The position numbers were made by a program, and so were the translations under genes. This document shows, in pieces, positions 11,022 through 40,839 of a stretch of 64,000 bases of DNA (its first letter is position 1; every line of letters starts with the position of its first letter). The notes under the pieces were generated by a model. That model ran no database searches. It was given only the letters and a program-made list of their open reading frames with translations, and was not told the origin of the DNA. Source of the DNA: Verminephrobacter eiseniae EF01-2 (lineage in GTDB: Bacteria > Pseudomonadota > Gammaproteobacteria > Burkholderiales > Burkholderiaceae_C); the NCBI RefSeq assembly GCF_000015565.1, contig NC_008786.1, positions 3,770,501-3,834,500 of the forward strand, given 5' to 3'.

Positions 11022-11180
11022 TGTCGTGTCACTGATCAGATGTCGTAGGCTGCGCGCAGCCATCGGAGCGCAGCGCAAGGCGCATAGCGCGGCCAATACC
11101 GAGCGTATTGGCAAGCGATGCAACGCCGCGATGCGCTTCGATGGCCAGCGCAGACCGACAGATGATCGGTGACGCGACAC
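11021..11180. mobile_element. MITE-like element, copy A (160 bp)
   Basis: A non-coding element bounded by near-perfect inverted repeats (GTGTCGTGTCACTGATCA at the left, TGATCGGTGACGCGACAC at the right) and flanked on both sides by TA (11019-11020 and 11181-11182). TA duplication is the habit of IS630/Tc1-type transposases, so this is probably a non-autonomous derivative. The interior contains a small palindrome, CCAATACCGAGCGTATTGG. The left end overlaps the stop codon of the metC-like gene. Other copies are at 14790, 22076, 22238 and 34024. Confidence 0.85.
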
Positions 11181-14043: not shown

Positions 14044-14790
14044 ATGTCCAGCCCCAAAGTCCTGTTCGGCTTTCACGCCGTGGGCGTGCGTCTGAAGACC
14101 GCGCCCGAATCGGTCATCGAGATCTACCACGAGGCCACGCGGCGCGACGCGCGCATGCGCCAGTTTCTCGAACGCGCCCGCGCGGCCGGCGCCCGCCTGA
14201 TCGAGGCTGACGGCATGCGCATCGCCAAGCTGGCCGGCAGCCATGGCCACCAGGGCGTGGCCGCGCGCGTGCAGCCCGTGGCGCCGATCAGTTCGCTCGA
14301 CGAACTGCTGGAAAAGCTCCAGGCCGCAGGCAGCGGACCGCCCTTGCTGCTGGTGCTCGACGGCGTGACCGACCCGCACAACCTCGGGGCCTGCCTGCGT
14401 GTGGCCGACGGGGCCGGGGCGCATGCCGTGATTGCGCCCAAGGACCATGCCGTGGGCATCAACGCCACCGTGGCCAAGGTGGCCAGCGGGGCGGCCGAGA
14501 CCATGCCGTACTTCATGGTGACCAACCTCGCGCGCACGCTCGATGAACTCAAGGAGCGCAGCATCTGGTGCATAGGCACCTGCGACGACGCGCCCGGCAC
14601 CTTGTACCAACTCGACCTCAAAGGCCCCGTGGCACTGGTGCTGGGCGCCGAGGGCAGCGGCATGCGCCAGCGCACCCGCAAGACCTGCGACGAACTGGCG
14701 CGCATCCCGATGCAGGGCGCGGTGGAGAGCCTGAACGTCTCGGTGGCCAGCGGCATATGCCTGTACGAGGCCCTGCGCCAACGCGCCTAG
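14044..14790 (+). CDS. rlmB: 23S rRNA (guanosine-2'-O)-methyltransferase RlmB
   Basis: A 248-residue SPOUT methyltransferase. An N-terminal substrate-binding domain (VLFGFHAVGVRLK) is followed by the trefoil-knot catalytic domain with LDGVTDPHNLGACLR, VLGAEGSGMRQ and VESLNVSVASGICLYE, which form the SAM pocket. It methylates the ribose of G2251 (E. coli numbering) in the peptidyl-transferase P-loop of 23S rRNA. Start 14044 is the first ATG matching the family N-terminus. Its stop codon TAG (14788-14790) is composed of the TA flank plus the first G of a minimal MITE copy, so the 3' end of the gene has been touched by an insertion. Confidence 0.93.
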   Translation: MSSPKVLFGFHAVGVRLKTAPESVIEIYHEATRRDARMRQFLERARAAGARLIEADGMRIAKLAGSHGHQGVAARVQPVAPISSLDELLEKLQAAGSGPPLLLVLDGVTDPHNLGACLRVADGAGAHAVIAPKDHAVGINATVAKVASGAAETMPYFMVTNLARTLDELKERSIWCIGTCDDAPGTLYQLDLKGPVALVLGAEGSGMRQRTRKTCDELARIPMQGAVESLNVSVASGICLYEALRQRA

Positions 14791-14827
14791 TGTCGCGTCA
14801 CCGATCATCTGACCGGTGACGCGACAC
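14790..14827. mobile_element. MITE-like element, copy B (38 bp, ends only; hairpin after rlmB)
   Basis: Only the two inverted ends of the repeat remain: a 14-bp perfect stem (GTGTCGCGTCACCG with CGGTGACGCGACAC) around a 10-base loop, flanked by TA on both sides (14788-14789, 14828-14829). The interior of about 120 bp seen in the other copies is missing. Lying right behind the rlmB stop, the hairpin could act as a transcription terminator or mRNA end-protector, though no U-run follows. Confidence 0.8.
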
Positions 14828-22075: not shown

Positions 22076-22235
22076 GTGTCGCGTCACCGATCATCTGTCG
22101 GTCTGCGCTGGCCATCGAAGCACATCGCGGCGTTGCATCGCTTGCCAATACGCTCGGTATTGGCTGCGCGATGCGCCTTGCGCTGCGCTCCGATGGCTGC
22201 GCGCAGCCTACGACATCTGATCCGTGACGCGACAC
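22076..22235. mobile_element. MITE-like element, copy C (160 bp, reverse orientation)
   Basis: Same ends (GTGTCGCGTCACCGATCA and its complement with one change, GGATCAG) and same interior as copy A, but inverted. It is joined head to tail with copy D through the two bases CA (22236-22237). Its outer left flank is TG instead of TA. Confidence 0.85.
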
Positions 22236-22237
22236 CA

Positions 22238-22398
22238 GTGTCGCGTCACGGATCAGATGTCGGTCTGCGCTGGCCATCGAAGCGCATCGCGGCGTTGCAT
22301 CGCTTGCCAATACAGCTCGGTATGGGCTGCGCGATGCGCCTTGCGCTGCGCTCCGATGGCTGCGCGCAGCCTACGACATCTGATCGGTGACGCGACAC
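22238..22398. mobile_element. MITE-like element, copy D (161 bp, reverse orientation)
   Basis: Second unit of the tandem pair, same orientation as copy C and almost identical inside. It differs in one spot where the central palindrome reads CCAATACAGCTCGGTATGGG. Flanks are CA (left, shared with C) and TG (right), so the TA rule seen for A, B and E is broken here, by mutation or by recombination between copies. Confidence 0.85.
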
Positions 22399-25912: not shown

Positions 25913-26192
25913 CCGGGGCACCGCCGCCGGCGCCATGCGGGTGCGAAAGCCGCCTCCAAGCCTGTGCAGACCAGCGCTGCCGACCAGGGCGACGCGGGAT
26001 AACCCCGGTTGTGCGCGCCTGACCGCGCTTGTAGGCTGCATCCATGTCTTGGCATGCAGGTGTTGACGAGTTGACGAATCGAACCATCGACAGACATGCG
26101 TTGGCGGCACGCAGCGCAAGCCCGGAGAAAGCCGGGCGCCAACGGGCCGCGAACCCGCGCGCGTGCAGCACCGGCCCTTGGCGACTGGCCCC

Positions 26193-27199
<1,007 letters not shown>

Positions 27200-27203
<4 letters not shown>

Positions 27204-28327
27204 GTGCCGCCCGGCCGCCCGAAGGCACTCATACCGTAGCCGAAGGCGAAGGTACCCCAGTGGGCGCCCCGCCCGTCATCGAAGTGCGCCAACTGCGCGT
27301 GCTGTTTCCGACGCGCGACCGTTCGCAGACCGTCAAGGCCGTCGACGGCGTGAGCTTCGATGTGCGCGCCGGCGAGACCTTCGGCATCATTGGCGAATCA
27401 GGCTCCGGCAAGACCACCCTGGGCCGCGCGCTCGTCGCACTCGTGGCACCGACCGAAGGCGTCGTGCTGCACGGCGGGATCGACCCCTGGCAGCTTGCGC
27501 GCGCCGCGTTGCAAACGCGGCGCCGCGACTACCAGATCGTGTTCCAGGACCCGCACTCGGCGCTCGATCCACGGCTGCGCATCATCGATTCGACGCTGGA
27601 GCCGCTGCAAGCCTCGGGCGGCAAAGACCGCCCGGCCCGGCGCCGCGCCGCGCTCGATGCGTTGGCGCGTGTCGGCCTGTCCGAAGAAATGGCGCAGCGC
27701 TATCCGCACCAGCTCTCGGGCGGCCAAAAGCAGCGGGCCAACATTGCGCGTGTGCTCACGCTGCGGCCCAAGGTCATCGTCTGCGACGAAGTGGTGGCGG
27801 CGCTCGATGTCTCGATCCGTGGCGCGATCCTGAACCTGTTCGCCGACCTGCAGCGCGAGTTCGGTCTGACCTATGTGTTCATCACCCATGACCTGTCGGT
27901 GGTCGCGCATATCAGCGACCGTATCGCGGTGATGTACCTCGGGCGCTTCATGGAACTGGGCCCGAACCAAAGCCTGACCCGACAGCCCATGCACCCGTAC
28001 ACGGCGGCGCTGCTGTCGGCCGAACCGGTGGCGCTGCCGGCGCATCTGCGCGCGCTGCGCCCGCGCCGCATCACCCTGGAGGGCGAGATGCCAAGCCCTA
28101 TCGATCCGCCCTCGGGTTGCCGCCTGCGCACGCGCTGCCCCTGGGCATCCGCGCGCTGCGCCGCCGAGGCGCCGGCGTTGCGCGAGCTGCGGCCACAGCA
28201 CTGGGTGGCCTGCCATTGGGCAACGGCGGCAGGGCCGCCCGCAGGCAACGGCGGCGCGGCCGCCGGTTGCCATCGCCCCGGCACCACCGACCACGGCATC
28301 GTTCACACCGCATGGGAGACAGCATGA
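27200..28327 (+). CDS. Dipeptide/oligopeptide-type ABC transporter ATPase (DppF-like)
   Basis: A 375-residue second ATPase of the operon. Walker A is GESGSGKTT, signature LSGGQKQRANIARVL, Walker B VIVCDEVVAALDVS, switch FITHD. The usual DEPT is DEVV, as in many DppF proteins (DEPV/DEVV). The C-terminal CRLRTRCPWASARC region is also present, followed by a Gly/Ala-rich tail of about 35 residues that is longer than usual. Overlaps its neighbours on both sides by ATGA. Confidence 0.92.
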
Positions 28328-29904
28328 GTCAGCGTCGAGATGACAGGGTTTCACGGCTTCCTTCGAGCGCCTTGCAGCGCCGCGACGCTTTGGGCCTGGC
28401 GGGCTTGGGTCTGGCGGGCCTGGGCCTGGGCTGGCCCGTGTTCGCGCAGACCGCGCCGAAGAAGGGTGGCGTGCTGAGGATCGCGAGTCCGGCCAATCCT
28501 TCGAGTCTCGACCCGGCGGTGGGTGGCGCCGGCTCCGACCATGCCATCTTGTGGACGATGTACGACACGCTGGTCGAATGGGACTACGCCACACTCAAGC
28601 CCAAGCCCGGCATGGCCGAATGGATCTTTCCGGACCCGAAGACCATGCTGCTGCGCATCAAGCCGGGCATCTCGTTTCATGACGGCACGCCGTGCGACGC
28701 CGAGGCCGTGCGCTGGAACATCGAGCGCAATCGCGGCGATGCGGCCTCGAACCTGAAGGCCGACCTGTCGAGCATCGAGGCCAGCGCCGTCGTCAGCCCG
28801 ACGCAGGTCAAGCTCATGCTCGACCAACCCGACGCGGCGCTCCCCGCCGTCTTTTCCGACCGTGCGGGCATGATGGTTTCGCCCACGGCCCAGAAGGCGG
28901 CGGGCAAGGCTTTCGGCCGCAATCCGGTGGGCGCAGGGCCGTGGCGGTTTGTCAGTTGGGCCGACAACCAAAAGGTGATCGTCACGCGCCACGCGCAGTA
29001 CTGGCGCACCGGCCTGCCGTACCTCGACGGCATCGAGTTTTCGATCATTCCCGAACTGGCCACCGGCCTGCGCTCGGTGGTGTCCCGGCAGAACGATCTG
29101 GCCTACCAGCTATCGGCGCGCTACCGCCCGATCATTACGCGCGAGAAGGCGCTCCGGCTGGTGACAGGCCCCACGCTCTACTGCATACAGCTGTACATGA
29201 ATTACGCGCGGGCGCCGCTGGACAACCCGAAGCTGCGGCAGGCGATCAACTTCGCGCTGAACCGCGAGGCTTTCGTCAAGGCCACGATGGACGGTGTTGG
29301 CGAGCCCGCGCATATGAACCTGCCGAGCACCCACTGGGCCTACGACAAGAGCGTGGCCGGCCTGTATCCGCATGACGTGGCAAAGGCCAGGCAACTGATG
29401 GCCGACGCCGGGCTGGCCGCCGGCATCGATCTGACGATCGGCGGCTACACCGACCAGGACGCAGTGCGCCGCGGCGAAATCGTGATGGATCAACTCGGCA
29501 AGATCGGCATCCGCCTGAAGTTCACGAACGGCACGATCCCCGAGATCAGCGGCCAGTTCTTCGGCACAGAAAAGAAGTTCGACATGCTGCTGTCGGCCTG
29601 GACTGGCCGCCCCGACCCGAGCATGAGCTACTCGCTGATGTACGCCAAGGGCGCCTACTACAACGCCGGGCGCAGCGAGTTCTCGCCGGAACTCTCGGCA
29701 CTGCTGCAGGAAAGCCGCGCCAGGGAAGATATCCAGTGGCGCAAAAGCGTGTTCGCCAAAATCCAGCGCATGGTGATGGAAAACGCGCTGGTGGCGCCGC
29801 TGGCCTTTCAATTCGAGATCGACGCCTTGTCCAACGCGGTGCAGGGCTTCGTTCCGAATCTGCTGGGCAAGCCGAAATTCAACAACCTGTCCTTGTCCGG
29901 CTGA
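28324..29904 (+). CDS. Peptide/acid-binding protein, ABC transporter family 5
   Basis: A 526-residue family-5 extracellular receptor (DppA/OppA/NikA type). The N-terminus LQRRDALGLAGLGLAGLG is a twin-arginine-like signal. The mature part starts GGVLRIASPANPSSLDPAVG, with the family signature FPDPKTMLLRIKPGISFHDGTP and NPVGAGPWRFVSW. Start 28324 overlaps the DppF stop (ATGA); the stop overlaps the dppB start by one base. It determines ligand for the transporter; the ligand is not predictable here. Confidence 0.92.
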   Translation: MSQRRDDRVSRLPSSALQRRDALGLAGLGLAGLGLGWPVFAQTAPKKGGVLRIASPANPSSLDPAVGGAGSDHAILWTMYDTLVEWDYATLKPKPGMAEWIFPDPKTMLLRIKPGISFHDGTPCDAEAVRWNIERNRGDAASNLKADLSSIEASAVVSPTQVKLMLDQPDAALPAVFSDRAGMMVSPTAQKAAGKAFGRNPVGAGPWRFVSWADNQKVIVTRHAQYWRTGLPYLDGIEFSIIPELATGLRSVVSRQNDLAYQLSARYRPIITREKALRLVTGPTLYCIQLYMNYARAPLDNPKLRQAINFALNREAFVKATMDGVGEPAHMNLPSTHWAYDKSVAGLYPHDVAKARQLMADAGLAAGIDLTIGGYTDQDAVRRGEIVMDQLGKIGIRLKFTNGTIPEISGQFFGTEKKFDMLLSAWTGRPDPSMSYSLMYAKGAYYNAGRSEFSPELSALLQESRAREDIQWRKSVFAKIQRMVMENALVAPLAFQFEIDALSNAVQGFVPNLLGKPKFNNLSLSG

Positions 29905-30902
29905 TGTCCGCAGACAAGACCACGGCGGCCGACGGCAGCGCGTTGCGCCGCCTGTGCCGCCTGCGCCACCACCTGCTCGCGCGCCGGCTGATGCAGGCTT
30001 TGCCGGTGCTGCTGTTTGCCACCTTCGTCGTCTTCGGCTTGCTCAAACTCGTGCCGGGCGACATCGCCGTGGCGCTGGCCGGGGACAACGCCAGCGACGC
30101 GCGCCTGGCCGAGATCCGGGCGCTCTACGGGCTGGACCAGCCCTTTCTGGTGCAATACGGCCACTGGCTGTGGCAGGCGCTGCAGGGCGACCTGTCCCAG
30201 TCGCTGATGTCCGGCGAAGCGGTGACCGTGTCGATCGCGCGCTGCCTGCCGAAAACCGCGCTGATCGTCGGCCTGGCACTGCTGATCGCGCTGGCGGTCG
30301 GCATCCCGCTGGGCATGTGGGCCGCCGCAAAGTGCGGCACCTGGGTCGATGGCTGGGTGATGACGCTGGCCTCGCTCGGTGTCGCCGTGCCGAACTTCTG
30401 GCTCGCGATGGTGCTGATCGCCTGGTTCGCCTTGCAACTGAACTGGCTGCCGGCGACAGGCTCGGCCTCGCTCGGCGCCGAGCCTGTCGAGGCGCTGCGC
30501 CATGCCTTGCTGCCGGCGCTGGCGCTGGCCGCCGGCGGCATCGCCGAGGTGTCGCGGCAACTGCGCAGTTCGCTGGTCGACCTGCTGTCGTCGCAGCAGG
30601 TGCGCACGCTGCACGCCAAGGGCCTGTCGCCTGCGGCCATCCTTTGCAAGCATGGCCTGAAGAATGTCGGCGTGAACTTGCTGACGGTGGTCACCCTGCT
30701 GGCCAACCGGATGCTGGCCGCCACGGTGGTGATCGAGGCGGTGTTCGCGATCCCGGGCATGGGCGGGCTGATCGTGCAGGGCGCGCTGTCGCGCGACTTC
30801 CCCGTGGTGCAGGGCGTGGTGTTCACGATGGTGCTGATCGTGATCACGATCAACCTGGGTGCCGATTTGCTATATGGCGTGATCGATCCGAGGGTCAAGT
30901 AA
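29904..30902 (+). CDS. Dipeptide-type ABC transporter permease (DppB-like)
   Basis: A 332-residue permease with six predicted membrane segments and a long periplasmic region after the first (VPGDIAVALAGDNASDARLAEIRALYGLD). The cytoplasmic EAA-type loop reads RTLHAKGLSPAAILCKHGLKN. It should pair with a DppC permease, which normally follows at once; here the next 5.5 kb is a sugar cassette and dppC only appears at 36415. Start 29904 overlaps the receptor stop. Confidence 0.92.
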   Translation: MSADKTTAADGSALRRLCRLRHHLLARRLMQALPVLLFATFVVFGLLKLVPGDIAVALAGDNASDARLAEIRALYGLDQPFLVQYGHWLWQALQGDLSQSLMSGEAVTVSIARCLPKTALIVGLALLIALAVGIPLGMWAAAKCGTWVDGWVMTLASLGVAVPNFWLAMVLIAWFALQLNWLPATGSASLGAEPVEALRHALLPALALAAGGIAEVSRQLRSSLVDLLSSQQVRTLHAKGLSPAAILCKHGLKNVGVNLLTVVTLLANRMLAATVVIEAVFAIPGMGGLIVQGALSRDFPVVQGVVFTMVLIVITINLGADLLYGVIDPRVK

Positions 30903-31005
30903 AAAGTCTCGCGCATCACGACCATGGCAGGCAAAGCCAGAACCGTCGATGCGCCACGGGCGCGAGCACAAAGTCAGAGCACACTGCGCGGAAAGCATCC
31001 ACGGT

Positions 31006-31020
31006 GTGGAATCGAACACC
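31006..31020 (+). repeat. 15-base motif, inverted partner of 36280-36294
   Basis: GTGGAATCGAACACC; the reverse complement of 36280-36294 matches it in 14 of 15 bases. A related form (GTGGCATCGAACACC) lies at 25000-25014. The pair brackets the sugar cassette that separates dppB and dppC, so it could mark ends or hot spots of an inserted segment. Confidence 0.4.
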
Positions 31021-31110
31021 ACCAACGCAATATCGGAGAACAGCGACAGTAAAATCCAACGCGCCAAATACCGTGCCCGCAAATTTGGAAACAGCAACAC
31101 CCCCATCGAC

Positions 31111-31164
31111 ATGATCCATTTCTTGTGTGCTAGACTGGCGTTTTCTTGCCCACGGCATTCCACA
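31111..31164 (+). repeat. Left direct repeat flanking the sugar cassette
   Basis: ATGATCCATTTCTTG...GCGTTTTCTTGCCCACGGCATTCCACA; about 80% identical by eye to 36359-36414. It lies between dppB and the first gene of the inserted cassette. The 27 bases at its right end differ from the other copy at only three or four positions. Confidence 0.7.
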
Positions 31165-31185
31165 ACACACCATCAGGAGACCATC

Positions 31186-32136
31186 ATGATTTCACGCTTG
31201 ACTGCTTTGCTTCTCGGCATTTTTATATTCTCAGCCTGCTCGACCGTTGCCACGGCCCAATCCAAAACCAGGAAAATTTACCTGATGACCCATGGCAGTG
31301 ACGCCGATCCGATGTGGATAGAATGGAATCGTGGTGCCATCGCAGCCTGCGCAAAAATCCATGCCAAGTGCCATATCTCATTCCACTCGAACAATGTCTC
31401 GTCCCAAAAGGAGGCCTTCAATTCAGCGATTGCCGCAAGAGCGGATGGCATAGCAACGACCAGCGCCGAGCCAAAAATCTGGAACAAGGAAGTCGCTGCG
31501 GCCACCAAAGCCGGCATTCCTGTGGTGTTCTTCAATTCCGATGACCCTGCCGCAGGCCGTTACTCCTATGTCGGGGCAGACCTCTTTCAGGCCGGTGTGA
31601 TCTGGGCAAAATACCTCGTCGACAACAAAGTCGTGAAAGCGGGAGACAAGGTTTTCCTGCCGGTCGAAGCCGCCGGGGCGACCTACCAGGTGCTGGAAAC
31701 CAAGGGGGTGGCCAGCGTGTTTGACCCATTGGGCATCAAATACAGCGTGCTCGAAGTAGGCTCTGAACCCGCCAGCCTGATCACGCGGATGACCGAATAC
31801 CTGACCGCAAACCGTGATGTCAAAGCCATCATCGGGCTTGGCGATCTGGTGACTGCCCACTCACGGGCAGCACTGAAAAACATTGGCGCCAAGCCCGGAC
31901 AGATTCCGGTGGTGGGCTGGGGCTATAGCAAAGATACCGCAGAGGCTGTCATGGAAGGATATGCCATGGCCGGTCTGTGGCAATTCCCCTACGACCTGGG
32001 CTACCTGCCCGTCATGATCGTGGATGGTCTTGCCAAGGCAGGCGGCAAAGGATATGACATCACCACGCTGGACCTGTACGACAAATCGAATGTCCAGACC
32101 TTCCTCAAAACCATGATGGCAGCGCAGAAAAAATAA
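31186..32136 (+). CDS. Sugar-binding protein of the inserted ribose-type ABC transporter
   Basis: A 316-residue type-1 periplasmic receptor. The signal sequence (LLGIFIFSACSTVATAQS) contains a cysteine that could be lipidated, although FSAC is a weak lipobox. The mature protein begins KTRKIYLMTHGSDADPMW, with ligand-loop positions NSAIAARADGIATTSAEPKIW and AIIGLGDLVTAHSRAALKN. It is distinct from the receptor at 20019. Start 31186 follows ATCAGGAGACC. Base composition is visibly more A/T-rich than the flanking dpp genes, consistent with acquired DNA. Confidence 0.88.
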   Translation: MISRLTALLLGIFIFSACSTVATAQSKTRKIYLMTHGSDADPMWIEWNRGAIAACAKIHAKCHISFHSNNVSSQKEAFNSAIAARADGIATTSAEPKIWNKEVAAATKAGIPVVFFNSDDPAAGRYSYVGADLFQAGVIWAKYLVDNKVVKAGDKVFLPVEAAGATYQVLETKGVASVFDPLGIKYSVLEVGSEPASLITRMTEYLTANRDVKAIIGLGDLVTAHSRAALKNIGAKPGQIPVVGWGYSKDTAEAVMEGYAMAGLWQFPYDLGYLPVMIVDGLAKAGGKGYDITTLDLYDKSNVQTFLKTMMAAQKK

Positions 32137-32165
32137 TCCGCAACTCACTCACCGGGGTAGAACGA

Positions 32166-33194
32166 ATGGCGACAGGCACCCGCAATGCAGCGACCACAGA
32201 GGCTGGCATGACGAACCGATTGAAGCTCTCGTTTCTGAGGCTATTGGCGCAACACCGTGAACTCAGCCCACTGATCATCCTGGTCGCGTTATGCATCGCC
32301 TTTTCAATGGGCAACGCCAGTTTTTTCTCGGCTTTGAATTTGACGAATCTGTTGTCCATCCTCCCGGAACTGGGAATCATCGCCTTGGCGATGACTTTGC
32401 TGCTGACCACCGGCGAGTTCGACCTTTCCGTGGGTGCCGTATTCGCGCTGGCGCCGATTCTCCTGCTGCTGATGGTTCAGTCGGGCGTGCCGCTTCCGGT
32501 GGCGCTTGCGCTGGCCCTTGCGGTGTCGGCTGCGATCGGCTGCCTCAACGGCTGGCTGGTCACCGGGATGGCGATCACCTCTTTTCTCGTGACGCTCTCC
32601 ATGTTGCTGATCGTTCGCGGCGTGGCGCTTTTCATCACCAACGGCTTCCCGCAGAAACCATTGGAGGATGAATCCTGGTTGCGCTGGATGCTCTCTGGCG
32701 GCGTTGACATCGGAGAATTCACCATCCATGCCTCGCTGTTGTGGTTTATCGCGCTTAGCGTGATGTGCCATTACCTCTTGCGCCGATCGAAGTTGGGAAA
32801 CTGGATTTTGGCTACGGGCAGCAACGGCCCTGCGGCAATCGCCCGTGGCGTGCCGACGGCAAAAGTCAAAACCGGCCTGTTTGCCTTGACCTCCCTGTTT
32901 GCCGGCTTCGCCGGCATTCTGAGTGCCCTGCGAATCTCGTCCGCCTCTCCCATAGCGGGTACCGGGTACGAACTTGAGGTCATTGCCATGGTGGTGGTCG
33001 GCGGAACGGCGCTGACGGGTGGTTTGGGTACGATCATTGGAACCGTGATTGGTGTCATGCTGCTGCGGATCATCCGCAATGGAATCATCATGGCCGGCGT
33101 GCCAGGGCTTGCTTACAATATTTTCGTCGGGGTCATCATCCTTGCCATGCTGATCATCAACTCCCGCCTCGAAAAACACATCAAACTGCGTTGA
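32166..33194 (+). CDS. Ribose-type ABC transporter permease (inserted cassette)
   Basis: A 342-residue RbsC-family permease with about ten hydrophobic segments, the TGEFDLSVGAVFALAPILL signature and the cytoplasmic coupling segment AMVVVGGTALTGGLGTIIG. The N-terminal 40 residues (MATGTRNAATTEAG...) precede the first helix; an internal ATG after 14 residues is an alternative start. It follows the receptor by 29 bases and precedes the ATPase by 4. Confidence 0.9.
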   Translation: MATGTRNAATTEAGMTNRLKLSFLRLLAQHRELSPLIILVALCIAFSMGNASFFSALNLTNLLSILPELGIIALAMTLLLTTGEFDLSVGAVFALAPILLLLMVQSGVPLPVALALALAVSAAIGCLNGWLVTGMAITSFLVTLSMLLIVRGVALFITNGFPQKPLEDESWLRWMLSGGVDIGEFTIHASLLWFIALSVMCHYLLRRSKLGNWILATGSNGPAAIARGVPTAKVKTGLFALTSLFAGFAGILSALRISSASPIAGTGYELEVIAMVVVGGTALTGGLGTIIGTVIGVMLLRIIRNGIIMAGVPGLAYNIFVGVIILAMLIINSRLEKHIKLR

Positions 33195-33198
33195 TCAT

Positions 33199-33969
33199 AT
33201 GACTACCGAACTTATCCGCCTCGAAGGCATCAACAAGTCGTTCGGCAATGTGCAGGCGTTGAAGGATATCGATCTCAAAATCGATTCCGGCGAAATAGTT
33301 GCCTTGTTGGGAGATAATGGAGCGGGAAAGTCGACACTGATCAAAGCCCTGTCCGGCGTCTATCCGATCGATAAGGGCGCCATCTTCTTCAAAGGCAAGC
33401 ATGCGTCGATTCGTAGCGCACGCGATGCCATCGACCTTGGCATAGAAACCATCCACCAGGATTCATCCCTGGCTCCAGACCTTTCGATTGCCAATAATCT
33501 TTTCCTGGGCCGCGAACCGATGCGATACGCCTGGATGGGCGCCTTCTCCCCGATCGATCGTGCCTATGTGGAATCACGTACCCGTGAGTTGCTGCGCAAG
33601 GCAGGGATTTCAAAAAACCTGGACCCGCATACCAAAATCAAGGGACTGTCCGGTGGTGAGCGCCAGTCCATCGCCATTGCCCGTGCCATGTTCTTTTCCT
33701 CTGACCTGATCATTCTGGATGAGCCAACCAACAATCTCGGTGTCGACGAAACACGCGCCGTCCTCCGATTCATCAGGGAAGCCCGCGCCTCGGGTCACTC
33801 CTGCATTTACATCACACATAGCCTGCACCATGTTTTCGAAGTGGCAGACCGCGTCATCATCATGCGGCAGGGAACCATCATCTCGGATTTGCCGCGTTCG
33901 GAAACCGATCTGATACGCACGGAGATGCTGATCACTGAAGGAGTGGTACGATCTGCTGAAACCTCCTGA
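33199..33969 (+). CDS. Sugar ABC transporter ATPase, single domain (FrcA-like)
   Basis: A 256-residue ATPase with Walker A GDNGAGKST, Q-loop ETIHQDSSLAPDL, signature LSGGERQSIAIARAM and Walker B LIILDEPTNNLG. It has only one nucleotide-binding domain, unlike the fused RbsA-type ATPase at 18382, and so resembles the fructose-type FrcA, which works as a dimer. Downstream, 54 bases later, the operon is interrupted by MITE copy E before the oxidoreductase gene. Confidence 0.9.
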   Translation: MTTELIRLEGINKSFGNVQALKDIDLKIDSGEIVALLGDNGAGKSTLIKALSGVYPIDKGAIFFKGKHASIRSARDAIDLGIETIHQDSSLAPDLSIANNLFLGREPMRYAWMGAFSPIDRAYVESRTRELLRKAGISKNLDPHTKIKGLSGGERQSIAIARAMFFSSDLIILDEPTNNLGVDETRAVLRFIREARASGHSCIYITHSLHHVFEVADRVIIMRQGTIISDLPRSETDLIRTEMLITEGVVRSAETS

Positions 33970-34023
33970 ACTGCCATCTTTCCGCAACGGCTCGGACTTT
34001 CAAACCGGGGGAAATGGGGGCTA

Positions 34024-34182
34024 GTGTCGCGTCACCGATCAGATGTCGTAGGCTGCGCGCAGCCATCGGAGCGCAGCGCAAGGCGCATCGCTTGCCAATA
34101 CCGAGCGTATTGGCAAGCGATGCAACGCCGCGATGCGCTTCGATGGCCAGCGCGGACCGACAGATGATCGGTGACGCGACAC
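34024..34182. mobile_element. MITE-like element, copy E (159 bp)
   Basis: Same orientation as copy A, with ends GTGTCGCGTCACCGATCA and TGATCGGTGACGCGACAC that are perfect inverted repeats over 18 bases, flanked by TA on each side (34022-34023, 34183-34184). It lies inside the sugar cassette between the ATPase and the Gfo/Idh gene, so it inserted after or together with the cassette. Confidence 0.87.
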
Positions 34183-34242
34183 TAGGGTGCACCACGCTTG
34201 CCGGTGGACCACCGCTGCATCGACAAAATATCGGAGACAAAC

Positions 34243-35334
34243 ATGAAGATACTACCGCAGCCTGACGTGCCCATCCGCTGCAGAGAGTTCCGCATCGGCG
34301 CTATCGGTGCCGGGTTCATCATGAGTGAAGTGCAACTGGAGGCATACCGCGAAGCCAACTTCAGCGTGCTTGCCATTGCATCGCGCACGCGCTCCAAGGC
34401 CGAGGCGGCCGCAAAGCGTTACGGAATTCTCACCGTTCACGATACCCCCGAAGACCTCATCCGCGACCCCCGGGTCGAGATTGTCGATATCGCGTTCCCC
34501 CCGGACATGCAACCCGGCCTGATACGCTTGGCGCTCCAGCAGCCACATATCAAGGGCATCTTGGCGCAAAAGCCGCTGGCGCTCGATTTTGTGACGGCAC
34601 GCGAACCGGCCAGGGAGTGCAGGACGTCGGGAAAGCGGGTGTCGGTCAACCAGAATATGCGCTTCGATCAATCGATGCGGGTACTCAAACAGATTCTCGA
34701 CAACGGTGAGTTGGGTCTCCCCGTCCTGGCTACGATAGAAATGCGGGCGATTCCGCATTGGCAGGGCTTCCTGAAACAGTATGGACGGCTGACCTTGCTG
34801 AATATGAGCATCCATCACCTGGATGTGTTGCGCTTTCTCTTCGGTGAGCCCATCGACATCTTCAGCGCCGCGCGCCCGGACCCCCGCACCGAGTTTGCGC
34901 ACACCGACGGCATCGTTTGCTCCACGCTCCGCTTTCAGAACGGACTGATGGCCGTCAGTCTGGAGGATGTGTGGAGCGGGCCGCGCGAGGCAAACTTTGC
35001 ATCGGATACCTATATCAAATGGCGTGTAGAAGGCACTGAGGGTCTGGCGCAGGGCAGTATCGGCTGGCCTGATTACCCCGCAGGCAGTCCCAGCACACTG
35101 CGATACTGTTCGCGCAGAACGACCGACGGTCGCTGGATCGAGCCGACCTGGGGCACATGCTGGTTTCCCCAGGCATTTGCCGGTGTGATGGAGCAACTGC
35201 AATGGGCCTTGAAAAGCAATCAGCCGCCCATGTTGGGCGTAGATGACAATCTCAGGACGATGGCTCTGGTCGAGGCCGGCTATCGTTCGATGGCAGAGCG
35301 GCGCACCGTCTTGCTTGCTGAATTTGAGGTATGA
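34243..35334 (+). CDS. Gfo/Idh/MocA-family oxidoreductase
   Basis: A 363-residue NAD(P)-dependent sugar or inositol dehydrogenase-like protein. The Rossmann domain begins FRIGAIGAGFIMSEVQLEAY, with the acidic and basic cofactor positions in IASRTRSKAEAAAKRYG. The usual EKPLA motif appears as QKPLA, a change at a residue often conserved. The catalytic-domain histidine region is NMSIHHLDVLRFLFG. Start 34243 follows ATCGGAGACAAAC. It most likely oxidises the sugar imported by the genes upstream and works with the isomerase downstream, as in inositol or keto-sugar pathways. Confidence 0.88.
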   Translation: MKILPQPDVPIRCREFRIGAIGAGFIMSEVQLEAYREANFSVLAIASRTRSKAEAAAKRYGILTVHDTPEDLIRDPRVEIVDIAFPPDMQPGLIRLALQQPHIKGILAQKPLALDFVTAREPARECRTSGKRVSVNQNMRFDQSMRVLKQILDNGELGLPVLATIEMRAIPHWQGFLKQYGRLTLLNMSIHHLDVLRFLFGEPIDIFSAARPDPRTEFAHTDGIVCSTLRFQNGLMAVSLEDVWSGPREANFASDTYIKWRVEGTEGLAQGSIGWPDYPAGSPSTLRYCSRRTTDGRWIEPTWGTCWFPQAFAGVMEQLQWALKSNQPPMLGVDDNLRTMALVEAGYRSMAERRTVLLAEFEV

Positions 35335-35376
35335 GTTGGATAGCGGTTTCGTGTAACCCGGCAGGAGGAATTTACC

Positions 35377-36288
35377 ATGATTCAAACAGGAATCTTCACC
35401 GGCTATTTTCCTTATTCACTGGAGGAATCCGCCCAGCGGATCAGGGCGCAGGGATTCAACACCGTTCAGTTGGACCTGGCATTCAAGGACATGGATTTCC
35501 AGACCCCTGATTCCATCACCAGCGACAAATGCCGGCATGTGCGTGACACCTTTCGCAGGCACGATTTACCGGTGAGTTGCGTCTCGGCGTATACCAACAT
35601 CGTCCACCCTGATCCTGGTGAGCGGCGCAAACGTAACGCATATCTGAAGGCCATACTTCGCCATGCCCGCGATTGTGGCAGTCCTTACGTCATCAGTGAG
35701 ACCGGAACGGTGAACCCTGACAGTGATTGGTCCAGCCACCCGGACAACAAAAGCGAGCGCGCCTATGAGGATTGCGTGAAAATCGTTCGGGAGATTGCGC
35801 AAGAGGCTTACGATCATGGCGCAATGTTTTTGGTCGAGACATACGTCAACAACATCATTGGTTCGATCGAGGAAACTTCGCGCTTGTTTGCCGACGTCGA
35901 CCATCCGGGCCTGGGGCTGCTGATGGATCCGACCAACTATTTCGAGGCGCACAATATCGACCGGATGGACCAGGTGCTCAACCAGATGTTTGATGTCCTG
36001 TCCGACAAAATAAAAATTGCCCATGCCAAGGATGTCAAGCGCAGCAGCAGTGATGACAAGGGTGAGAAATTCGCCGCCATCGATGCCTCCGAGGCGCACC
36101 AGTTTCGCGGGGTTGGCGCGATTGAACTGCCAGCCCCCGGACTGGGTTCCCTGAACTACATACTGTACCTCAAACGCCTGGCCAGGCAGCACCCCAACAT
36201 TCCCATCATCATCGAGCATCTGGACGAGAGCGATGTGCCGCGCGCAAAAGAATTTCTGGATCGCAAGCTCATCGATGCAGGTGTTTGA
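35377..36288 (+). CDS. Sugar-phosphate isomerase/epimerase-like TIM-barrel protein
   Basis: A 303-residue AP-endonuclease-2-fold protein of the IolE/IolI/keto-3-epimerase group. Metal-ligand positions typical of the family are visible: the Glu in FLVETYVNN, Asp in GLLMDPTNYF, His in KIAHAKDVK and Glu in IIIEHLDES. Start 35377 has a strong ribosome site (GCAGGAGGAATTTACC). Last gene of the cassette; its stop lies within a few bases of the inverted 15-mer at 36280. Confidence 0.88.
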   Translation: MIQTGIFTGYFPYSLEESAQRIRAQGFNTVQLDLAFKDMDFQTPDSITSDKCRHVRDTFRRHDLPVSCVSAYTNIVHPDPGERRKRNAYLKAILRHARDCGSPYVISETGTVNPDSDWSSHPDNKSERAYEDCVKIVREIAQEAYDHGAMFLVETYVNNIIGSIEETSRLFADVDHPGLGLLMDPTNYFEAHNIDRMDQVLNQMFDVLSDKIKIAHAKDVKRSSSDDKGEKFAAIDASEAHQFRGVGAIELPAPGLGSLNYILYLKRLARQHPNIPIIIEHLDESDVPRAKEFLDRKLIDAGV

Positions 36289-36294
36289 TTCCAC
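36280..36294 (-). repeat. 15-base motif, inverted partner of 31006-31020
   Basis: Read on the minus strand this is GTGGAATCAAACACC, differing from 31006-31020 by one base. It overlaps the last codons and stop of the isomerase gene. Confidence 0.4.
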
Positions 36295-36334
36295 CCGCCA
36301 AACGCCGTTCTCGCGGACTTGTAACCATCGACAG

Positions 36335-36361
36335 CCATATCCATATGCCATATGCCATATG
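36335..36361 (+). repeat. Short tandem repeat CCATATG
   Basis: CCATAT followed by CCATATG three times, immediately ahead of the right direct repeat. It is an A/T-rich tract in the gap between the isomerase and dppC. Confidence 0.7.
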
Positions 36362-36414
36362 GTCCATTTCTCGTAATGCAATGAGCCGACGTTTTCTTGC
36401 CCACGGTATTTCAC
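36359..36414 (+). repeat. Right direct repeat flanking the sugar cassette
   Basis: Imperfect copy of 31111-31164, ending ACGTTTTCTTGCCCACGG then TATTTCAC directly before the dppC start codon. Together with the left copy it brackets the cassette of about 5.2 kb. Confidence 0.7.
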
Positions 36415-37278
36415 ATGGACCCGGTAAAAATGAATGAAGCACGCAGTATCCGGGTGCTGCGCTGGCTGCGCAGCGATCTGCGGGCGGCGCTCAGCCTGGC
36501 TTTTCTGGTGCTCTTGCTGCTGCTGTCGGTCACGGCGCCATGGATCGCCCCGCACGCACCGAGCGCGCAAAATCTCGATGCCACGCTGCAACCGATCTCC
36601 GGCGCGCATTGGCTGGGCACCGACGACCTGGGCCGCGACATTCTGAGCCGCATGATCCACGGCGCGCCAGTCACCCTCTACGCGAGCTTGCTGGCGGTCG
36701 GCGTGGCGATCGTGCTGGGCCTGCCGATCGGCCTGCTGGCGGGCTACCTCGGCGGCTGGCTCGACGAAGTGGTCGGCCGGCTGATCGACACGCTGCTGTC
36801 GTTTCCGGCCATCGTGCTGGCCATCGCCGTGACCGGCGCCCTGGGCATTGGCCTGACCAACGCGATGATCTCGGTCGGCATCGTGTTCGCGCCACAACTG
36901 GCGCGCATCGTGCGGGCGCGCACGCTGGTGGTCAAGCAGGAACTGTATGTGGATGCCGCGCGCTGCTTTGGCGCGTCCACGCGCAGCATCCTGTGGCGCC
37001 ATGTGCTGCCGAACACGATACAGCCGGTGATCGTGCAGATCACGCTGCTGTTGGCCGGCGCCTTGCTGGCCGAAGCCAGCCTGAGCTTCCTGGGCCTGGG
37101 CATACAGCCGCCCAACGCCAGTTGGGGCGCCATGCTCGCCCGCGCCTACCAGAACATGGAAATCGCGCCGGAGCAGATGTATGCGCCGGGCCTGGCGATC
37201 CTCTCGACCGCCATCGCGTTCAACACGCTCGGCGAGTCGCTGCGCGTGGCGCTCGACCCCACGCACCAGCGACTTTGA
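36415..37278 (+). CDS. Dipeptide-type ABC transporter permease (DppC-like), separated from dppB
   Basis: A 287-residue permease with the DppC N-terminus (first helix LAFLVLLLLLSVTAPWIAP), the periplasmic LGTDDLGRDILSRMIHGAP signature and the cytoplasmic EAA loop VVKQELYVDAARCFGASTR. It completes the transporter encoded at 26193-30902, yet lies 5.5 kb further on. ATG 36415 and 36430 are both possible starts; neither has a good ribosome site, as if the original upstream DNA was lost when the cassette came in. Expression may depend on read-through from the cassette. Confidence 0.88.
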   Translation: MDPVKMNEARSIRVLRWLRSDLRAALSLAFLVLLLLLSVTAPWIAPHAPSAQNLDATLQPISGAHWLGTDDLGRDILSRMIHGAPVTLYASLLAVGVAIVLGLPIGLLAGYLGGWLDEVVGRLIDTLLSFPAIVLAIAVTGALGIGLTNAMISVGIVFAPQLARIVRARTLVVKQELYVDAARCFGASTRSILWRHVLPNTIQPVIVQITLLLAGALLAEASLSFLGLGIQPPNASWGAMLARAYQNMEIAPEQMYAPGLAILSTAIAFNTLGESLRVALDPTHQRL

Positions 37279-37322
37279 TCCCGGCCGCAGTGCCGAACCA
37301 GTGACCTTCCCGAAGGAACGAC

Positions 37323-39083
37323 ATGACCCCGCTGACCCCAATGACCCGGCTGACCCCGCAACAGGTTTTTGACGACATGCGCGCGCAAGGCGACATGGTG
37401 CTCGACAAGCTCGACGAATGCGCCGCGCAGATGCCCGACAAGGTGTACCTGCACTACGGTGAAGACAACATCCGCATGCGCTTTTCCGAGGTCAAGGCGC
37501 AAACCGACCGCATCGCTGCCGCGCTGGCGGCAATGGGCCTGCCGCCAGGCCAGCCGGTGAGCGTGCTGACCCGCAATTCGCTCGTGGGCACGCTCGCGAT
37601 GTATGCGATCTGGCGCGCCGGGGGTGTCTTCGCGCCCGTCAATTTCGGTTTTCGCGGCGCGCTGCTGTCCTACCAGCTCAACGACACCGCGCCGTTCGCG
37701 TTGATCACCGACAGCTCGTTTGCAGCGGCGCTGTCGGAGATTGCCGCCGAGATCGAACTCAGGCGGCTGCTCGTGCACCGGCCGGGCGCCGGCGATCACG
37801 ACTTCAGCGCCGGGCCGGTGCCCGATTTCGATCCACGGTTCGCGCTCAGCGACTTCGCGGCGCTGCGCGGACACAGCGGCCCGGTGCCCCATGTGCCGCG
37901 CGGCCCCCTGGATATCGCCAACATCGTCTACACCTCGGGCACGACCGGGCCGTCCAAAGGTGTGCTGCAGCCTTTTCGCTGGATGAACCACTACACGTAC
38001 CCGCTGCGCGCAACGACCACCAGCGCCGACGTGCTCTATTGCGACCTGCCGCTATACCATGTCGGGGGCGCCTTTGCGCTCGTCGCGCGGGCGCTGTGGC
38101 AGGGCAACACCGTCGGCCTGTGGGACCGCTTCAGCCCGACACGGTTTTGGGAGCGCATCGAGGACTGCGGCGCGAGCAGTTGCATCTTGCTCGACGTGAT
38201 GATCCCGTGGCTGATGAACGCCGCGCCGCGCCCCGGCGACCGCGCCAACACGCTCAACAAGGTGCACATGCAGCCGCTGCCGGTCAACCACAACGAAGTG
38301 GCGCGCCGCTTTGGCATCGACTTCGTCAGTTGCGGCTTCGGACAAACCGAATCCGGCTCGGGCTTCGCTTGCGTCATCGATGAACTCGGCGACCAGACGG
38401 GAACCCCGGCAGCACTGTGGAAGGGGCGCTCGAAGGCCGAGTACCGCGCCAGTTGCCAAGCCTCCGGGCGGCTGCTGGTCGATGGCAACCAGCCGCTGCC
38501 CAAGGGCTTCATGGGGCGCGCCAATCCGGTGCTCGAGGTCGCGATCCTCGATGAGGACGACAACCATGTGCCGCCCGGCGCCGTCGGCCAGCTCGCCTTT
38601 CGGCCGCGCTTTCCGGGTTTGCTGCTCCAGGAGTACCTGCGCAAGCCGCAAGTCACCGTCAAGGCGCAACGCAACTGCTGGTTCCACACCGGCGACGCCT
38701 GCCGCCAGATCGCCGAGGCTCCCGACACCTACGCCTTCGTCGACCGCATGGGCGGCTTGTGCCGTGTGCGCGGCGAGAACGTATCGTCCTTCGATGTCGA
38801 GGCATTGCTGGCCAGGCAGCCCGGCGTGCGCGCGGTCGCTGCCGTGCCGATACCGGCGCAGGTGGGCGATGAAGACGAGATCGCCGTCTTCATCGAGGTG
38901 ACGAGCGGCGCGACGCTCGACGAGGCCGCAGTGCGCCGCCATGCGCAGGCGTCGATGCCAGGCTTCATGCAGCCGCGCTACATCCGCCTGGTCGATGCGC
39001 TGCCCGTCACGGCCACCAACAAAATCGAAAAATACAAGCTCAAACAGCAACTGCTGCAAGAGTTGGGCAGCGCGGCGGCCTGA
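37323..39083 (+). CDS. AMP-forming acyl-CoA ligase (crotonobetaine/carnitine-CoA ligase-like)
   Basis: A 586-residue adenylate-forming enzyme. The P-loop motif is IVYTSGTTGPSKGV, the A5 motif GFGQTESGSG, the hinge motif is represented by WFHTGDACRQ and RMGGLCRVRGENVS, and the C-terminal lysine motif is TATNKIEKYKL. It joins an organic acid to CoA with ATP. It is 45 bases downstream of dppC and 13 upstream of another ligase, so the dpp-type transporter may import an acid or acyl-peptide activated here. Substrate unknown. Start 37323 follows CGAAGGAACGAC. Confidence 0.88.
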   Translation: MTPLTPMTRLTPQQVFDDMRAQGDMVLDKLDECAAQMPDKVYLHYGEDNIRMRFSEVKAQTDRIAAALAAMGLPPGQPVSVLTRNSLVGTLAMYAIWRAGGVFAPVNFGFRGALLSYQLNDTAPFALITDSSFAAALSEIAAEIELRRLLVHRPGAGDHDFSAGPVPDFDPRFALSDFAALRGHSGPVPHVPRGPLDIANIVYTSGTTGPSKGVLQPFRWMNHYTYPLRATTTSADVLYCDLPLYHVGGAFALVARALWQGNTVGLWDRFSPTRFWERIEDCGASSCILLDVMIPWLMNAAPRPGDRANTLNKVHMQPLPVNHNEVARRFGIDFVSCGFGQTESGSGFACVIDELGDQTGTPAALWKGRSKAEYRASCQASGRLLVDGNQPLPKGFMGRANPVLEVAILDEDDNHVPPGAVGQLAFRPRFPGLLLQEYLRKPQVTVKAQRNCWFHTGDACRQIAEAPDTYAFVDRMGGLCRVRGENVSSFDVEALLARQPGVRAVAAVPIPAQVGDEDEIAVFIEVTSGATLDEAAVRRHAQASMPGFMQPRYIRLVDALPVTATNKIEKYKLKQQLLQELGSAAA

Positions 39084-39096
39084 AGGACGGCCCGGC

Positions 39097-40839
39097 ATGA
39101 ACCCACACGACGACCCTCTCGCGCAAGACCCCCTGCTGCGCGAACTCGCCGAACTGCAGCAGCGGCACTGGCCCGCCGCCATCGCGCGCAAACCCGCCTA
39201 TCCGTTCGGCGAGCTTGCGCTGAGCGAGTACCTGCGCCGCTGGGCCGCGCTACAGCCGCAAAAGGCGGCCGTGATCTTCTACGGCCAGACCATCACCTAC
39301 GCGCAGCTCGACGCCTTGAGCGAGCGCTGCGCCGCGCTGCTGGCCAGCCATGGCGTGCAGGCCGGCGAGCGCGTGGCGGTCATGCTCCCGAACTGCCCGC
39401 AGTACCACATCGTGTTCTTCGCGATCCTCAAGCTCGGTGCGGTGCATGTGCCGGTGAACCCGCTGTTCAAGGCGCAGGAACTGCTCTACGAACTCAACGA
39501 CAGTGGCGCCAAGACACTGGTCGTGCTGGACCAGTTGGCCGAAATGGCAGGCCGGGTGCTGCCCCGGACCTCGGTCACGACGGGCTTTTTTACCAGCATG
39601 CACGACATGCTGCCGGCTGCACCCACGCTGCCGGTGCCGCCGAGCATCCTCGGGCCACGCATCGCACCGGCCGGCATGCTGGACCTGATGCCTGCACTGC
39701 ACGCCAGCACACAGCAAGCACCGCAACCGTCGCAACCGCCGCAATGGACACGGCGGACGCCCGAACTCGATGCGCCTGCGGCATTGAACTACACGGGCGG
39801 CACCACGGGCATGCCCAAGGGCTGTGTGCACACGCAGCGCGACATGATCTACACGGCCGCCACCACCTGCAGCGTGGCCCACCAGATCGGGCCGGACGAC
39901 ATCACGCTCAACTACATGGCGCTGTTCTGGATCGCAGGCGAAAACGCCGGGATGATCTTCCCGATCTTCTCCGGCAGCACCGTCGTGCTTCTGGCGCGCT
40001 GGGACCCGGTGGGCGCGATGGCGGCCATCGAGCGCTACGGCATCACGCGCGCCGGCATGGTGCTCGACAACGCGGTCGAGATCATGGAGCACCCGCAAGC
40101 AGGCGCTTACGACCTGCGCTCGCTCAAGGTGGTGCGCGTGTCCTCGTTCGTGAAAAAGCTCAACCCGGAATACCGCCGGCGCTGGTGCCAACTCACCGGC
40201 ACGGTGATGATCGAGGCCGCCTGGGGCATGACCGAGACGCACACCTGCGACACCTTCACCGCCGGCCAGCAAGACGATGACCTGGACCTGCGCGGCCAGC
40301 CGGTGTTCGTCGGTCTGCCGGTGCCCGGCACCGTCATCAAAATTTGCAGTTTCCAGACCGGCGCCACCCTGCCGATCGGGCAAGAGGGCGAGATCGTGGT
40401 GCGCAGCCCCTCGCTGCTCAAAGCCTACTGGAACAAGGCCGAAGCCACCACCGAATCGCTGCGCGGCGGTTGGCTGCACACCGGCGACATCGGCGTGTTC
40501 GACGCGCGCGGCTGCCTGCACTTTCTCGGCCGTGCCAAGGAGATGCTCAAGGTCAAGGGCATGAGCGTGTTCCCGTCCGAAGTCGAGGCGCTGCTGGGCC
40601 GGCATCCCGAGGTGCTGGGCTGCGGCGTGGTGGGTCAGGCCGACGCCGAAAAGGGCGAGATCCCGATCGCCTTCGTGCGCCTGCGCGACGCCAGCGCGCT
40701 GACCGAAGCCGACCTCGCCGCCTGGTGCCGCGACAACATGGCCGGCTACAAGGTGCCGCAGATCCGCTTGGTCAGCGCGCTGCCGATGACGGCCACCGGC
40801 AAGGTCAAAAAGCACGAGTTGCAGGCGCTGTTGCAATGA
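39097..40839 (+). CDS. AMP-forming acyl-CoA ligase (fatty/aromatic acid type)
   Basis: A 580-residue adenylate-forming ligase, complete, with LNYTGGTTGMPKGCVHTQ, GMTETHTCDTF, GWLHTGDIGVFD and the C-terminal TATGKVKKHELQ with the catalytic lysine. A Pro/Gln-rich insertion (about residues 185-225) is unlike most relatives. Start 39097 follows GAAGGACGGCC. Last gene of the plus-strand series; it converges on the FAH hydrolase at 41136. The two ligases probably act on related acids. Confidence 0.88.
   Translation: MNPHDDPLAQDPLLRELAELQQRHWPAAIARKPAYPFGELALSEYLRRWAALQPQKAAVIFYGQTITYAQLDALSERCAALLASHGVQAGERVAVMLPNCPQYHIVFFAILKLGAVHVPVNPLFKAQELLYELNDSGAKTLVVLDQLAEMAGRVLPRTSVTTGFFTSMHDMLPAAPTLPVPPSILGPRIAPAGMLDLMPALHASTQQAPQPSQPPQWTRRTPELDAPAALNYTGGTTGMPKGCVHTQRDMIYTAATTCSVAHQIGPDDITLNYMALFWIAGENAGMIFPIFSGSTVVLLARWDPVGAMAAIERYGITRAGMVLDNAVEIMEHPQAGAYDLRSLKVVRVSSFVKKLNPEYRRRWCQLTGTVMIEAAWGMTETHTCDTFTAGQQDDDLDLRGQPVFVGLPVPGTVIKICSFQTGATLPIGQEGEIVVRSPSLLKAYWNKAEATTESLRGGWLHTGDIGVFDARGCLHFLGRAKEMLKVKGMSVFPSEVEALLGRHPEVLGCGVVGQADAEKGEIPIAFVRLRDASALTEADLAAWCRDNMAGYKVPQIRLVSALPMTATGKVKKHELQALLQ

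Follow-up and report, generated by a model that had tools for sequence, protein, structure and literature searches.

A compositionally foreign sugar module between the permease genes of a dipeptide-type transporter operon in Verminephrobacter eiseniae

Operons for ATP-binding cassette (ABC) transporters of the Dpp, Nik and Opp type encode two ATPases with oligo_HPY ends, a family-5 binding protein and two permeases; among sugar importers, FrcBCA-type CUT2 transporters presumably follow the order binding protein-permease-ATPase, with an ATPase of about 260 amino acids (aa). Horizontal transfer into an operon is a known kind of event. Here we describe a locus of Verminephrobacter eiseniae EF01-2, a nephridial symbiont of earthworms, in which CUT2-type sugar genes stand inside a dipeptide-type operon, between its permease genes dppB and dppC. 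We analysed 64,000 nucleotides (nt) of contig NC_008786.1 (the window, to which all coordinates refer) from a genome of 5,597,943 bases in two contigs, the larger of 5,566,749 bases; a literature search for Verminephrobacter together with dipeptide, ABC transporter or sugar found no paper.

On the + strand up to a TAA at 30902, two ABC ATPase genes with oligo_HPY ends (dppD, dppF), a family-5 binding-protein gene and dppB overlap in series, the dppB ATG overlapping the stop codon of the binding-protein gene; a preliminary description of this DNA had this gene order and these coordinates right. With dppC, the second of two BPD_transp_1 permeases, these genes make up a dipeptide/nickel-type ABC transporter. 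It departs from Dpp, Nik and Opp operons in that the binding protein and both permeases score below the NCBIfam equivalog cut-offs (dppB has an Opp2B/NikB-like match, below cut-off), in that the operon continues into acyl-CoA ligase genes, and in being split. Very probably, the ancestral operon had the order dppD-dppF-binding protein-dppB-dppC-acyl-CoA ligase, and in this lineage a sugar module of 5.5 kb, acquired horizontally, came to interrupt it. The genes on either side are as follows.

26163-40839: dpp operon with acyl-CoA ligase genes
29904..30902, + strand: dppB, permease 1 of the dipeptide/nickel-type ABC transporter (BPD_transp_1 with its N-terminal domain), the last gene before the insert
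36430..37278, + strand: dppC, permease 2, 282 aa from its probable ancestral ATG
37323..39083, + strand: AMP-forming acyl-CoA ligase (AMP-binding domains), next gene of the original operon

The dppB-dppC junction in relatives and the composition of the insert

A scan of species genomes with dppC gave 561 confirmed loci, the best 80 of which, with two loci from the same family, formed a set of 82 relatives that includes alpha-, beta- and gammaproteobacteria. The dppB match ends beside the dppC match in all 82 (alignment gaps -18 to 144 nt, median 54); in the window, about 5.5 kb separates the two genes. This count includes two contigs (L027 and L070) that begin a few hundred bases 5' of dppC and keep the end of dppB in place in a search without a coverage filter; with the filter, L027 had no dppB match and L070 only a distant one. 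We inspected 15 of the 82 junctions letter by letter; in the closest relative among those listed, a Rhodoferax metagenome-assembled genome (MAG; L018, dppC 88% identical), the stop codon is followed by 7 nt and an ATG. Adjacency of dppB and dppC is thus the usual state and the split is derived; that relatives might share the same split at normal base composition, or keep the two genes unlinked, is contradicted by these junctions. The binding protein, oxidoreductase and isomerase of the insert have no relative in the 82 fetched stretches (above 35% identity over half the length). In 11 of the 82, the Rhodoferax MAG among them, dppC is followed by an acyl-CoA ligase at 50% identity or more; what the insert divided was thus a longer operon.

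The insert is foreign in composition. Its G+C content (GC) over 30903-36414 is 0.563, against a mean of 0.653 over 117 windows of 5512 bases taken every 500; the lowest of these (0.563, from 31001) is the one that covers the insert. The corresponding figure in a sample of the genome is 66%, against 56% for the insert, and among 1-kb pieces a GC of at most 0.575 was reached by 2 of 114 from 38 other places in the genome and by 4 of 5 from the insert. The five insert genes have a GC at third codon positions (GC3) of 0.64-0.74, the five dpp genes one of 0.81-0.87; dppF and dppB were measured over open frames that start somewhat upstream of their likely starts. The greater A/T-richness noted earlier holds by both measures, GC and GC3.

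The genus itself offered no empty site: all 47 genomes have a dppC homologue (E <= 1e-20), the best outside this genome being 48% identical. The locus of the best genus dppC match (L160), considered as a counterpart, belongs to a different paralogous operon (dppB 39%, dppC 52%). At E <= 1e-80, dppC was found in 3 of 299 family genomes, this one included. The operon of dpp and acyl-CoA ligase genes is closest to that of the environmental Rhodoferax MAG and has no close counterpart in the 46 other genomes of the genus; since close counterparts are absent there, the dpp operon may itself have been acquired or widely lost. Separately, this genome holds at least 27 dppC matches (E <= 1e-20; 52 of 84 candidates scored), compared with 1-16 in the 46 genomes of the same genus; Opp/Dpp-type permeases are expanded here.

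Borders, repeats and the state of dppC

The borders of the insert carry the following short elements.

30899..30905, + strand: GTAAAAA, left border copy, just after dppB (target duplication or microhomology)
30906..31185, + strand: left non-coding part of the insert, 280 nt, low GC
31091..31164, + strand: direct repeat, left copy (gapped local alignment; core 31139-31164)
36331..36415, + strand: direct repeat, right copy (gapped local alignment; core 36390-36415)
36424..36430, + strand: GTAAAAA, right border copy, its last A being the A of the ancestral dppC ATG

Among seven other dppC orthologues, three start at the equivalent of ATG 36430 (282 aa), three start one residue further out (283 aa) and one (P0132) is 309 aa long, so the ancestral dppC start was most likely 36430. 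The ATG at 36415, at which dppC had been placed before, most likely adds merely five insert-derived residues; the position of dppC after the insert stands, and its start probably moves to 36430. The insert would then extend, probably, to about 36423, where the second GTAAAAA begins. This border match is weak by its length and persuades by its position. Joined at GTAAAAA, the flanks read GAGGGTCAAG TAA AA ATG AAT GAA, an ordinary tight junction (TAA, 2 nt, ATG), and a strain without the insert is predicted to carry GAGGGTCAAGTAAAAATGAATG. Incoming DNA would have entered just after the dppB stop, at or beside GTAAAAA, and would have separated the dppC start codon from a GAGGG inside the end of dppB, a possible ribosome-binding sequence. 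Anti-Shine-Dalgarno (anti-SD) pairing of the joined flanks is -6.4 kcal/mol, against -2.9 to -5.9 in six relatives; the pairing is stronger than at the present starts, which suggests that the insert removed a good one. On plasmids, the left border had no match at E <= 0.1, and the right border matched one record over 28 bases (E 0.03) in a CATATGC stretch, which we took as chance.

The direct repeats reported near both ends (31111-31164 and 36359-36414) are real, and alignment widens both copies. Their core is identical at 24 of 26 positions, and a genome search with either copy gives, at E <= 0.001, no match beyond the pair (81%, E 3e-5 to 1e-4), so we rejected a genome-wide repeat family. 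The longer left border has nine further genome matches, at E 0.11-0.74, likewise taken as chance. Within the right copy lies a short tandem repeat, CCATATGCCATATGCCATATGG, at 36341-36362, which is largely absent from the left copy. As the two copies are about 80% alike, the event was probably not very recent. The 15-base inverted pair described at 31006 and 36280 exists, with 14 of 15 positions paired, and is unusual for the two gaps (reached by 1 of 400 block shuffles of them); a role for it did not emerge. It lies about 100 nt inside the left border and about 130 nt inside the right, and one arm covers the end of the isomerase gene including its stop codon; because of this placement we do not read it as the terminal repeats of a transposon. 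A search at seed 9 listed no other inverted repeats at the insert ends, and neither a recombinase or integrase gene (among five metabolic or transport genes and one palindromic repeat) nor terminal inverted repeats were found that would class the insert as a transposon or integron-like cassette.

The dppC gene has no internal stop. Measured against the Rhodoferax MAG, its ratio of nonsynonymous to synonymous substitution rates (dN/dS) is 0.112, next to 0.117 for dppB, and amino-acid changes unique to the window versus unique to that relative number 10 versus 7 in dppC, 15 versus 9 in dppB, and 15-55 versus 12-16 in dppD, dppF, the binding protein and the ligase. By these comparisons dppC appears to stay conserved. 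No terminator-like site was detected on the + strand at 30903-31185 or 36289-36429, and the simplest view is that transcription of the sugar genes would run on into dppC; together with the ligase genes, dppC may now be read either in that way or within one long message.

Several observations count against a horizontal insertion into a once intact operon, or against its supposed effect on dppC. The relatives were chosen by dppC similarity (best 80 of 561 plus two), and the species is represented by the DNA of one strain. The direct-repeat copies are only about 80% alike, yet the GC of the insert shows no drift to the host level. A 7-base match between flanks of 45-46 bases arises in 0.0745 of shuffles and 0.0765 of random insert stretches (about 7%). 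Most of the divergence of dppC from the Rhodoferax MAG may predate the insertion, so dN/dS tells little about later expression. The terminator scan is weak evidence, with 5 sites over the region where shuffles lead one to expect 5.2, and a sigma-70-like promoter on the + strand was detected neither 5' of the sugar binding-protein gene nor elsewhere in the region. Finally, anti-SD pairing at the two present dppC starts is -4.8 (bulged) and -3.0 kcal/mol; both values fall inside the range of the six relatives, and the suggestion that dppC was left without a good ribosome site is not established.

The sugar module and its origin

Five genes, all on the + strand between dppB and dppC, and one palindromic repeat occupy the insert.

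31186..32136, + strand: sugar ABC substrate-binding protein (Peripla_BP_4; the best NCBIfam model, a rhizopine substrate-binding protein, is below cut-off)
32166..33194, + strand: CUT2 (ribose-type) permease (BPD_transp_2; ribose permease model below cut-off)
33199..33969, + strand: single-domain sugar ABC ATPase, 256 aa (one ABC_tran domain)
34021..34185, + strand: 165-bp palindromic repeat with 28-nt inverted ends, like a miniature inverted-repeat transposable element (MITE), probably VeiPR1, at the boundary between transporter and enzyme genes
34243..35334, + strand: Gfo/Idh/MocA-family oxidoreductase
35377..36288, + strand: sugar-phosphate isomerase/epimerase-like TIM barrel (AP_endonuc_2)

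A Peripla_BP_4 binding protein, a BPD_transp_2 permease and an ABC_tran ATPase in one cluster identify a CUT2 transporter. The ATPase matches only the first half of two-domain sugar ATPase models; RbsABC proper was rejected, as the ATPase has 256 aa rather than two domains in about 500 and the Rbs models score below cut-off. Of the ribose-type transporter with oxidoreductase and isomerase that had been proposed, the five genes and the CUT2 type are thus upheld and a two-domain RbsA is not. The module may import a sugar or polyol through this transporter with its single-domain ATPase, and breakdown would begin by oxidation and isomerisation. Among solved structures the isomerase has no relative, and the binding protein and oxidoreductase have distant ones only.

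Close relatives of these genes are rare around this genome. Among 399 genomes of the order, this one alone has the binding protein at E <= 1e-50; in a different draw, of 399 family genomes, two have it at E <= 1e-60 (this one and G116), and in the phylum it occurs in 9 of 398, this one included. For the isomerase at E <= 1e-60, this genome is again the single case among 299 of the family. Outside this genome the phylum search gave 11 places, six of which we retrieved together with broad flanking sequence. Three loci (L152, L153 and L154) hold oxidoreductase, isomerase, binding protein, permease and ATPase contiguously on one strand at 54-70% identity (binding protein 54-56%), and the window order, binding protein-permease-ATPase-oxidoreductase-isomerase, is a circular permutation of theirs. 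Each of these loci also has two further ABC ATPase matches upstream of the five genes. The remaining three loci, whose binding proteins are about 44% identical, encode the transporter but not the enzymes. The two betaproteobacterial relatives with a readable neighbourhood each carry one half: G116 has the three transporter genes (binding protein, permease and ATPase) at 73-79%, with other genes after them, and a Variovorax paradoxus plasmid has the oxidoreductase and isomerase (isomerase 84%) beside a different transporter. The insert genes thus occur elsewhere in other contexts, whole in the first three loci and by halves in these two.

In protein collections, the binding protein is 73% identical to a protein named Pelomonas sp. 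KK5, and the isomerase has its best relative outside this genome at 84% (named relatives: Pseudorhodoferax soli 81%, Bordetella sp. 79%). A plasmid search with the binding protein returned nine records, all Rhizobium, at 42-44%. A JGI metagenome protein (P0001, 10 member sequences) is 99% identical over the binding protein, with the same 395-aa frame and a similar translated upstream stretch, which indicates that this left end of the insert also persists in a second sample. Five further metagenome proteins (P0002-P0005 and P0007) match the binding protein at 71-78%.

The palindromic repeat yielded 380 candidates in the genome, of which 40 were scored (this copy included), all at 95-100%. In 23 of 34 copies inspected, TA stands at both outer edges of GTGTCGCG...CGCGACAC, a pattern that we take to recall IS630-type MITEs. 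Further terminal motifs occur in the window at 11021-11180, 14790-14827 and 22076-22398, the last being two copies nearly back to back. According to a review, VeiPR1 is a very abundant palindromic repeat of V. eiseniae, and a share of about 2.3% is given for this species in connection with the palindromic repeat (PMC3975124). The repeat at 34021-34185 is likewise very abundant and palindromic and is probably VeiPR1, an identification that rests on abundance and organism rather than on the repeat sequence.

How the five genes came together bears on the earlier proposal of one cassette: horizontal insertion, on the intact junctions and foreign composition, is the part that stands, and a single cassette is likely rather than proven, since the five genes are clustered in three loci but permuted, and two other relatives hold halves. 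One account has the module arriving as, or passing through, a circular or tandem form, in which the order oxidoreductase-isomerase-[repeat]-binding protein-permease-ATPase opened at the repeat to give the present order with a repeat copy at each end. The enzyme-first order of the three phylum loci set against the binding-protein-first order here, repeat copies that precede the binding-protein gene and follow the isomerase gene as a circular order predicts, and the absence of the repeat elsewhere in the genome at E <= 0.001 all speak for it; we nevertheless think it unlikely, given that the copies are about 80% alike, that the left copy leaves some 185 nt of the left end uncovered, that the insert has no integrase, and that the isomerase-binding protein spacers of the three loci show no clear similarity to either copy (six comparisons; the best, L154 against the right copy, was reached by 20 of 300 shuffles). 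Still more doubtful is the full scenario that a recombinase-less five-gene module travelled in circular form, with direct repeats of its own upstream region at its bounds, inserted between partner permeases and left the dipeptide-type transporter dependent on sugar-operon expression.

The order could also differ through a separate joining of two modules, with transporter and enzyme genes acquired independently, joined here and marked at the join by the palindromic repeat. That repeat does lie between the two groups, in G116 other genes come after the transporter set and the genome has no oxidoreductase relative at E <= 1e-40, and the plasmid enzyme pair adjoins a different transporter. However, three loci hold the five genes as one cluster, GC3 is similarly low in both halves, and a repeat with copies genome-wide needs no special cause to sit in a non-coding gap; we regard two acquisitions as rather improbable too, although from the gene orders both a permuted single module and a joining of two may be read. 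Hardly credible is an old split since healed in the relatives, or a movement of the dpp genes around a resident sugar operon: we found nothing in favour of either, the junction is intact in every relative, alpha-, beta- and gammaproteobacteria included, and it is the insert rather than the flanks that is odd in composition.

Comparison with known systems

A horizontal insertion into the dpp operon makes this locus a clean before-and-after case: the flanks predict a join, and one strain lacking the insert would be enough to check it. The locus also offers a test of whether the two permeases of a single transporter still function when their genes are controlled separately, and it further illustrates the published picture of this symbiont's genome as in flux.

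The transporter of the insert resembles FrcBCA in gene order and ATPase size and differs in its link to an oxidoreductase and an isomerase. Like mosaic operons produced by horizontal transfer, the locus holds foreign genes inside a conserved operon, all in one direction; unlike them, the acquired genes seem to have no functional tie to the host operon and replace no resident homologue, and the insert parts two permeases that normally work together.

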